Below, in pieces: positions 63,366 to 64,000 of a stretch of DNA of 64,000 nucleotides. The notes beneath the pieces are model-generated. The model saw only the letters and a program-made list of their open reading frames with translations, was not told the origin of the DNA and searched no databases. The stretch is from contig NZ_JAHYBZ010000006.1 of the NCBI RefSeq assembly GCF_019430885.1, forward strand, positions 1 to 64,000, read 5' to 3'. Every line of letters begins with the position of its first letter. Positions within the stretch are counted from its first letter, which is position 1. A program made the translations under genes and the position numbers. Source of the DNA: Roseomonas alba (GTDB taxonomy: Bacteria; Pseudomonadota; Alphaproteobacteria; Acetobacterales; Acetobacteraceae).

Positions 63366-63782
63366 GATCACGCTCTCTTAACGTGCTGCCAGGCTTTCAC
63401 CAACCGTCGCAATCGGCTTTGGTCCTGAGTCACAGCGTTGCGGAGCGGCGTCATCGTGCCCGCGCCCGGCGAGGCGGATCGCGACCCCAACCGGATAGGC
63501 AAGTATTGCGGGTGAAAATTAACCAAATAGTTGTATGCCCGCTCCGTTAATTGCGCGTTAACGACGTTAGCCGCGCATGAATCTCCCGTTCGCCTGAGTC
63601 ATGGTCAAGGCCTTTAAGCAGCTCATCAACAAATCACCCTGACCAATTTCCTATCTCATTAGTCTACCTAGAAGAAAAAACCTGACAAGTAGGAATGTTT
63701 ACTTGTTCTCCAGGGAAATCAACGCCAAGTTGAGGGGGTCTGGCGCTGCCAGGCCGTTCAAAGAACCCCTGGAGAACTCACC
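63366..63782. promoter_or_regulatory. AT-rich divergent leader with several inverted repeats
   Basis: A 417-bp intergenic region, much more AT-rich than the rest of the window, between the SARP-like regulator and the tandem-repeat gene. It contains GTTAA-7-TTAAC (63546-63562), ACAAGTA-8-TACTTGT (63685-63706), and near the gene a hairpin GGTCTGGC-GCT-GCCAGGCC (63737-63755). The start is preceded by GGAG (63771-63774). I could not place promoters with confidence. Confidence 0.6.
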
Positions 63783-64000
63783 GTGACCACCACTTCCAAG
63801 ATCGTTGACTCTGGCAGCGTCCGCATCGGCGCCGGCATCCGCGCCCCGAAGGCCTCCGTCGCCGACCAGGGCACCGTCCGCATCGGCGCCGGCATCCGCG
63901 CCCCGAAGGCCTCCGTCGCCGACCAGGGCAGCGTCCGCATCGGCGCCGGCATCCGCGCCCCGAAGGCCTCCGTCGCCGACCAGGGCACCGTCCGCACCGG
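63783..64000 (+). CDS. Tandem 19-residue repeat protein, 3' part cut by window edge
   Basis: Starts with GTG at 63783, 8 bases after GGAG, and reads open to the window end (72 codons). After a short N-terminus (VTTTSKIVDSG) it consists of units of 19 residues (57 bp), xVRIGAGIRAPKASVADQG, where x is Ser or Thr. Three complete units (at 63816, 63873, 63930) and the start of a fourth are visible. They are identical at the DNA level except that the first codon alternates AGC, ACC, AGC, ACC; the fourth also changes an Ile to Thr. Each unit has net positive charge (2 Arg, 1 Lys, 1 Asp). No signal peptide is seen. I do not recognise the family. A shadow frame on the minus strand is also open but its start lies beyond the window. 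Confidence 0.65.
   Translation, partial: MTTTSKIVDSGSVRIGAGIRAPKASVADQGTVRIGAGIRAPKASVADQGSVRIGAGIRAPKASVADQGTVRT

Follow-up and report, generated by a model that had tools for sequence, protein, structure and literature searches.

Cyanobactin precursors are multi-core RiPPs with repeated core cassettes, and repeat proteins of another kind cluster Rubisco. The peptide described here, from Roseomonas alba, resembles the multi-core RiPP precursors: it is likewise short and gene-encoded and made of near-identical units, each combining a constant part with a core specific to the lineage, and its gene likewise sits beside one conserved partner gene with a regulator nearby. We regard the system as putatively RiPP-like in architecture and do not class it as a RiPP. 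The explanation we prefer, to which we give somewhat less than an even chance, is that the repeat peptide would be a many-unit substrate for the product of the next gene, a DUF6065 protein with a predicted dUTPase fold.

The window, the 64,000-nucleotide stretch that we analyzed (G000:C25:1-64000), is part of a 448,945-base contig. It holds the first 218 bases of the repeat-peptide gene; the first-pass annotation had expected most of the gene to lie beyond the edge, and only 250 bp do. Read on the extended contig, the complete frame begins with a GTG codon and encodes 155 amino acids, with eight VRxGAG motifs at a spacing of exactly 19 residues and the C-terminal end GAGIRRA. Within the window, a single open frame on the + strand contains three complete 57-bp units followed by part of a fourth, and Tandem Repeats Finder gave a period of 57, 7.5 copies, 96% matches and a score of 781 for the extended contig. 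The near-identical repeats in one frame noted from the window are real, and the frame closes at C25:64250. On the extended sequence the frame proved long, its coding strand unchanged and its family not that of the RTX proteins; lack of a long frame, an RTX family and opposite-strand coding were the outcomes that the annotation had named as fatal to its proposal.

Table 1. Features of the repeat-peptide locus, in window positions unless a contig (C25) or locus (L004) is named.
Feature	Position	Strand	Basis or remark
BTAD/TPR transcriptional regulator, 671 aa	61356..63371	-	BTAD E 3.5e-9 and TPR_11, both over cut-offs
Inverted repeat ACAAGTA-8-TACTTGT, candidate operator	63685..63706		Located in promoter DNA conserved among the five closest relatives
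GGAG, probable ribosome-binding site for the repeat peptide	63771..63774	+	Sequence; 8 nt before GTG
Repeat-peptide gene	63783..64000, continuing to G000:C25:64250	+	Frame, repeats, family motif
Gap with possible hairpin	C25:64251-64325 (75 bp, beyond the edge)		Between the peptide and DUF6065 genes
DUF6065 gene	C25:64326-65138 (beyond the edge)	Same as peptide gene	Pfam match
DUF169 gene	L004:4257-5063 on G000:C25 (beyond the window)		After the DUF6065 gene

The seven full units of this array (locus L004) have a mean pairwise DNA identity of 97.0%, vs. 90.4% when compared with those of L005, the nearest relative, which supports recent homogenisation of the units at the DNA level, as the annotation had supposed. 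Its statement that the units differ only at one Ser/Thr codon (AGC/ACC) is correct for the first three full units and fails for the partial fourth, where an Ile codon is also changed (ATC to ACC). Over the seven full units, four bases vary in three codons and every change is non-synonymous; read along the array, the Ser/Thr codon gives S T S T S S T and the Ile/Thr codon gives I I I T I T T. Mean mismatches between units at lag 1, 2, 3 and 4 are 1.67, 1.20, 1.50 and 2.00, respectively, and the minimum at lag 2 is due only to the first five units. Neither the unit order nor the lag mismatches support growth of the array as 114-bp pairs, which the alternating codon had suggested. The N-terminal SKIVDSG, previously read as a decayed unit, makes up the D-x-G half of unit 1 and has counterparts in relatives (ILDSG in L005, VLDTR in L069 and ILDAA in L070). 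The predicted variation in copy number is borne out between species, with 8, 9, 18, 6 and 13 units in L004, L005, L068, L069 and L070, respectively; it is at this level only that we see it.

The gene was also correctly called unrecognised. The 155-aa peptide had no match above the curated cut-off in Pfam or NCBIfam, none in PADLOC at E 0.01 and none in the PDB by sequence at E 1, and PHROG gave two weak matches (E 0.0025 and 0.0029). A known repeat family was thereby set aside, none lying above the curated cut-off, as was a defence system, PADLOC having no match for the peptide, its partner, the regulator or the Rhizobium partner described below. When twelve family peptides were scanned against the libraries, each matched model was hit by one member only (lowest E: CysA_C_terminal 3.5e-8, a guanyltransferase model 3.5e-6 and PBSX_XtrA 1.5e-5), and no library family was matched by two of the twelve; we take these single-member matches as effects of repetitive sequence. 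The term DUF6065 was not found in the open-licence literature searched (listings and abstract starts), nor was anything matching the peptide. The repeat-peptide family is apparently new, and the system apparently undescribed as first proposed, as far as family libraries and literature listings reach.

Across the family, the motif D-x-G-x-[VI]-R-x-G-[AG] is present in 1 to 18 copies per peptide. Among 54 peptides, each given a weight of one, the letters that stay constant are D(-4), G(-2), V/I(0), R(+1), G(+3) and A/G(+4), and position +7 is most often R or P. Counted by regular expression, 7 of these peptides have one copy, 22 have two, 9 have three, 7 have four and 9 have five to 18; among the threes, L094 and L096 are counted too high, and contig ends, N runs or the choice of start truncate some peptides. 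The single-unit peptides include those of five loci of the viral_contigs collection (L137, L139, L142, L144 and L145). Cores are alike within one peptide and unlike between lineages, and in Rhizobium, L111 and L268 an H or a K takes the place of the motif's R.

The peptide gene is closely associated with a DUF6065 gene. At E 0.01, 55 of 249 Acetobacteraceae genomes have repeat-peptide matches, of which many are weak, and DUF6065 of any type is present in 93 of the 249 at E 0.001. At E 1e-3, 27 of 40 peptide loci have a DUF6065 gene at most 1.5 kb downstream on the same strand; among the 13 that do not, six meet a contig end downstream and one (L015, at G090:C473) looks like a CRISPR array, so the weak peptide matches include noise. 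We then considered 42 neighbourhoods, 40 picked from DUF6065 matches, mostly beside peptide matches, plus L004 and L005; leaving out one distant DUF6065 (L106) gives 41 subfamily loci. A peptide unit lies at most 900 bp upstream of DUF6065 in 40 of the 41, L100 being the sole exception, and at least two units do so in 39. The peptide is also present in 8 of the 9 loci that were picked without a peptide match (L067, L071 and L099-L105). With the same pattern, which was composed after the peptides had been seen and served for positives and controls alike, two units were found upstream in none of 45 canonical or distant DUF6065 loci and in none of 36 control stretches downstream of subfamily genes; single units occurred in 5 of the 45, where the frames resemble noise, and in 4 of the 36. 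The repeat peptide was found only with this subfamily among the DUF6065 loci compared.

A second cassette is present in the same genome on G000:C1 (L067), where three LRLGGLSPLF-type units precede another DUF6065. In a quick DUF6065 tree of 61 rows, which has two long branches (L153 and L268) and near-copies that inflate clustering, the core type of the peptide clusters: the SP-type requires 6 changes vs. a mean of 14.9 after shuffling, with 0 of 500 shuffles as low. The exception is L067, an SP-type among GAGxR-type partners. In a sample of the class, 30 of 289 genomes match the subfamily profile at E 0.001, and E values below 1e-100 are confined to the genome itself, three genomes of one alphaproteobacterial family (L108, L109 and L110) and one genome of another (L111). 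The peptides of these four loci have 2, 4, 4 and about ten units, respectively, with cores GNMSPAF and GMMAPAF. The subfamily looks narrow, since the genome itself was the only match at E 1e-15 in a phylum sample of 398 genomes. On a Rhizobium plasmid (NZ_CP104036.1), three [D]DGxVHIANKSPxF-like units occur in a hypothetical protein, whose gene is followed by those for a DUF6065 and then an MFS transporter. The phage contig L268 has four V[KR][LV]G[AG]-type units and a DUF6065 sharing 32% identity with its L005 counterpart; there, the repeat peptide and DUF6065 (L268:2700-3741) lie between portal and head genes that look T4-type by eye.

The partner gene, 75 bp downstream of the peptide gene on the same strand, encodes a 270-aa protein that matches DUF6065 (PF19541) with an E value of 4.3e-13 and a score of 49.7 bits, vs. 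a Pfam cut-off of 26.6. The viral_contigs collection contributed 88 DUF6065 relatives, of which 80 were kept. C41, G51 and N145 of the partner are common to 73 of these relatives and L005 (74 rows). The subfamily of the partner is nonetheless distinct, L005 being 14-23% identical to canonical phage members; a tblastn search with one canonical DUF6065 against the phage record collection gave no match. The predicted structure has a pLDDT of 89.8, and the best 50 matches listed in a PDB structure search were all dUTPases. A preliminary model built on 16 sequences had lower confidence (pLDDT 66.7), yet matched dUTPases already, and in a viral-structure search made with that model only, unnamed phage proteins came first and then mostly dUTPases. 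These models predict a dUTPase-like fold for the DUF6065 partner. At the sequence level, the partner had no PF00692 match in the Pfam scan and no PDB match (best E 0.14), and an hhalign profile comparison of DUF6065 with dUTPase was not significant (probability under 1%). The genome carries a true dUTPase separately, on C22.

The BTAD/TPR regulator gene is divergent from, and upstream of, the peptide gene. A homologue is present in 34 of the 42 loci: in 31 it is upstream and divergent, and in the other 3 it lies elsewhere in the neighbourhood. An all-against-all comparison of the 42 found no gene family in more than 8 apart from the peptide and the regulator. In the wider L111 locus (L282), a BTAD-like gene, recognised by eye, lies upstream on the same strand, and no BTAD-like regulator is visible in the wider loci of L108, L109 and L110. 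A BTAD domain is also present in SARP-kind antibiotic regulators. The inverted repeat in the promoter stretch is perfect in L004 and L070 and imperfect in L005, L068 and L069.

The gaps between the peptide and DUF6065 genes tend to fold stably. In the 27 of 37 gaps that were folded (those of 40-160 bp without N), the median folding z is -2.0 and 13 fall below -2, vs. a median of +0.29 and 0 of 28 below -2 for an inside-gene control (Mann-Whitney p 3.9e-7, with loci that are related) and a median of -0.35 and 6 of 28 below -2 for an after-gene control. Taken alone, the L004 gap has a z of 0.34 and does not stand out. Among the gaps of the five closest relatives, 3 of the 13 pairs in the hairpin stem are altered on both sides with pairing kept, but covariation as a whole is unfavourable (net term +1.08), and most pairs are lost in L070. 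A terminator-like site was sought and none was found. In other peptide operons, hairpins raise the precursor over the enzyme.

Some further neighbours should be mentioned. The DUF169 gene is common to the five closest loci (L004, L005, L068, L069 and L070) and absent from the others of the 42, and it is followed by genes that, on reading their sequences, resemble a branched-chain amino acid ABC transporter. Terminase and portal genes come after the cassette in 15 of the 16 viral (IMG/VR) contigs L137-L152 (by eye; PHROG-checked in L137). A related terminase, mostly in one copy, is found in 98 of the 249 Acetobacteraceae genomes; it lies at most 1.5 kb from a DUF6065 match in three genomes and 8.6 kb away in one (terminase-bearing places noted: G051:C146, G129:C36, G007:C152 and G078:C119), and possibly marks a gene transfer agent. 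As a constant part of the cassette the terminase was rejected, being absent from the 42 isolate neighbourhoods. Canonical phage DUF6065 genes often adjoin 2-oxoglutarate/Fe(II) oxygenase-like genes by eye (L180, L181, L194, L201, L216-L219 and others), forming clusters that comprise 11 and 9 of the 80 loci, with several near-identical contigs among them. The distant DUF6065 of L106 is downstream of what looks like an RTX-like calcium-binding repeat protein.

The gene pair, the 1 to 18 motif copies, the position of the regulator and the excess of stable gaps are direct observations. On the substrate explanation, the BTAD/TPR regulator would turn on the cassette operon, the hairpin downstream of the peptide gene would keep the peptide in excess over DUF6065, and DUF6065 would recognise D-x-G-x-[VI]-R-x-G in each unit and act unit by unit, one peptide presumably yielding several copies of the product, as in multi-core RiPP precursors. 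A many-unit substrate would account for one unit being enough in some lineages and 18 being present in others, and for units that are alike within a peptide with a core type that tracks the partner. Recurrence of the pair in two other families, in Rhizobium and on a phage contig also speaks for it. Against it, the loci share no protease or exporter, an MFS transporter following in Rhizobium only, and the usual targets of modification are Cys, Ser and Thr, whereas the most constant letters of the unit are D, R and G. The replacement of R by H or K in some members, the peptide-less DUF6065 of L100, the position of L067 in the tree, the stable folds in the after-gene control and the unfavourable covariation term count against it as well.

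The main rival to a substrate role is binding: unmodified units would dock on DUF6065, switching, inhibiting or completing it as an effector. In the boldest form of this proposal, the Gly-rich repeats would replace in trans the C-terminal arm (motif 5) of a dUTPase and may in this way complete the partner's active site. The Gly-rich arm is indeed absent at the DUF6065 C-terminus, and the conserved pair, the predicted fold and the protein partners that dUTPases have, such as Stl (PDB titles), fit docking too; a switch, however, needs no copy number of up to 18, and we consider docking rather unlikely. Another rival is a multivalent scaffold that would cluster oligomeric DUF6065, for which regular near-identical motifs, up to 18 per chain, would be suited. 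EPYC1/CsoS2-like scaffolds carry several partner-binding motifs on one chain; the repeats here might serve in that way, but single-unit members exist, and the five single-unit viral_contigs peptides would be unable to cross-link. A scaffold seems very unlikely to us.

That the peptide is itself an active antimicrobial, toxin or signal, with DUF6065 as its immunity, antitoxin or export partner, appears quite unlikely to us. It is small and basic, in an operon with one partner and under a dedicated regulator, but no signal peptide or transporter was recognised, PADLOC gave no match, and the motif is conserved over families, whereas most bacteriocins do not keep one motif in this manner. The remaining proposal, a neutral minisatellite with an accidental open frame, we disfavour as close to negligible in probability. 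Tandem DNA repeats expand easily, the L004 array has only non-synonymous differences, and dN/dS between species consensus units is not low (0.56-1.63 in three pairs with few changes; undefined in a fourth pair that has no synonymous change). However, the protein motif is kept across families despite different DNA and unit spacing, the array is linked to one gene, DUF6065, and pooled within-array pN/pS is 0.26, 0.16, 0.37 and 0.14 in L005, L068, L069 and L070, respectively, from non-independent pairs and few sites. These low values in four relatives point to selection on the protein.

Returning to the substrate explanation, a dUTPase-fold DUF6065 acting on every unit of a precursor would constitute a new class of peptide maturation giving many product copies; we know of no dUTPase-fold enzyme that acts on peptides. 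We advance this tentatively, as possible rather than probable, and to the same joint degree its range, which would span many Acetobacteraceae as well as some further Alphaproteobacteria and one or more phages. If true, a fold known for nucleotide hydrolysis would have a peptide-handling class, the two-gene signature of VRxG-type repeats and DUF6065 could be mined in genomes, and DUF6065, a family of bacteria and phages, would have a substrate or ligand open to testing. Should the peptide be a ligand only, repeat peptides linked to a single enzyme-like partner and governed by their own regulator would still pose a directly testable question.

Compared with RTX and other secreted repeat proteins, the peptide has tandem repeats of similar length, but lacks GGxGxD / GGxGxDxxx nonapeptides in its 155 aa and has no library match over the cut-off. 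The partner is predicted in the same fold as the trimeric dUTPases (PF00692), and along the best profile path its E160 aligns with the Asp of motif 3; judged by eye against 18 dUTPases, it has only a motif-3-like GIVExD of the five motifs, and motifs 1, 2 and 5 are not preserved. To our knowledge, this fold is unlike that of any RiPP enzyme, and no modifying enzyme was recognised among the gene families shared within the 42 loci, a subset of genes having been scanned against Pfam. The arrangement by which RiPP systems are known, a short precursor beside a conserved partner, is found in 40 of the 41 subfamily loci, and DUF6065 could itself be a new RiPP modifying enzyme.
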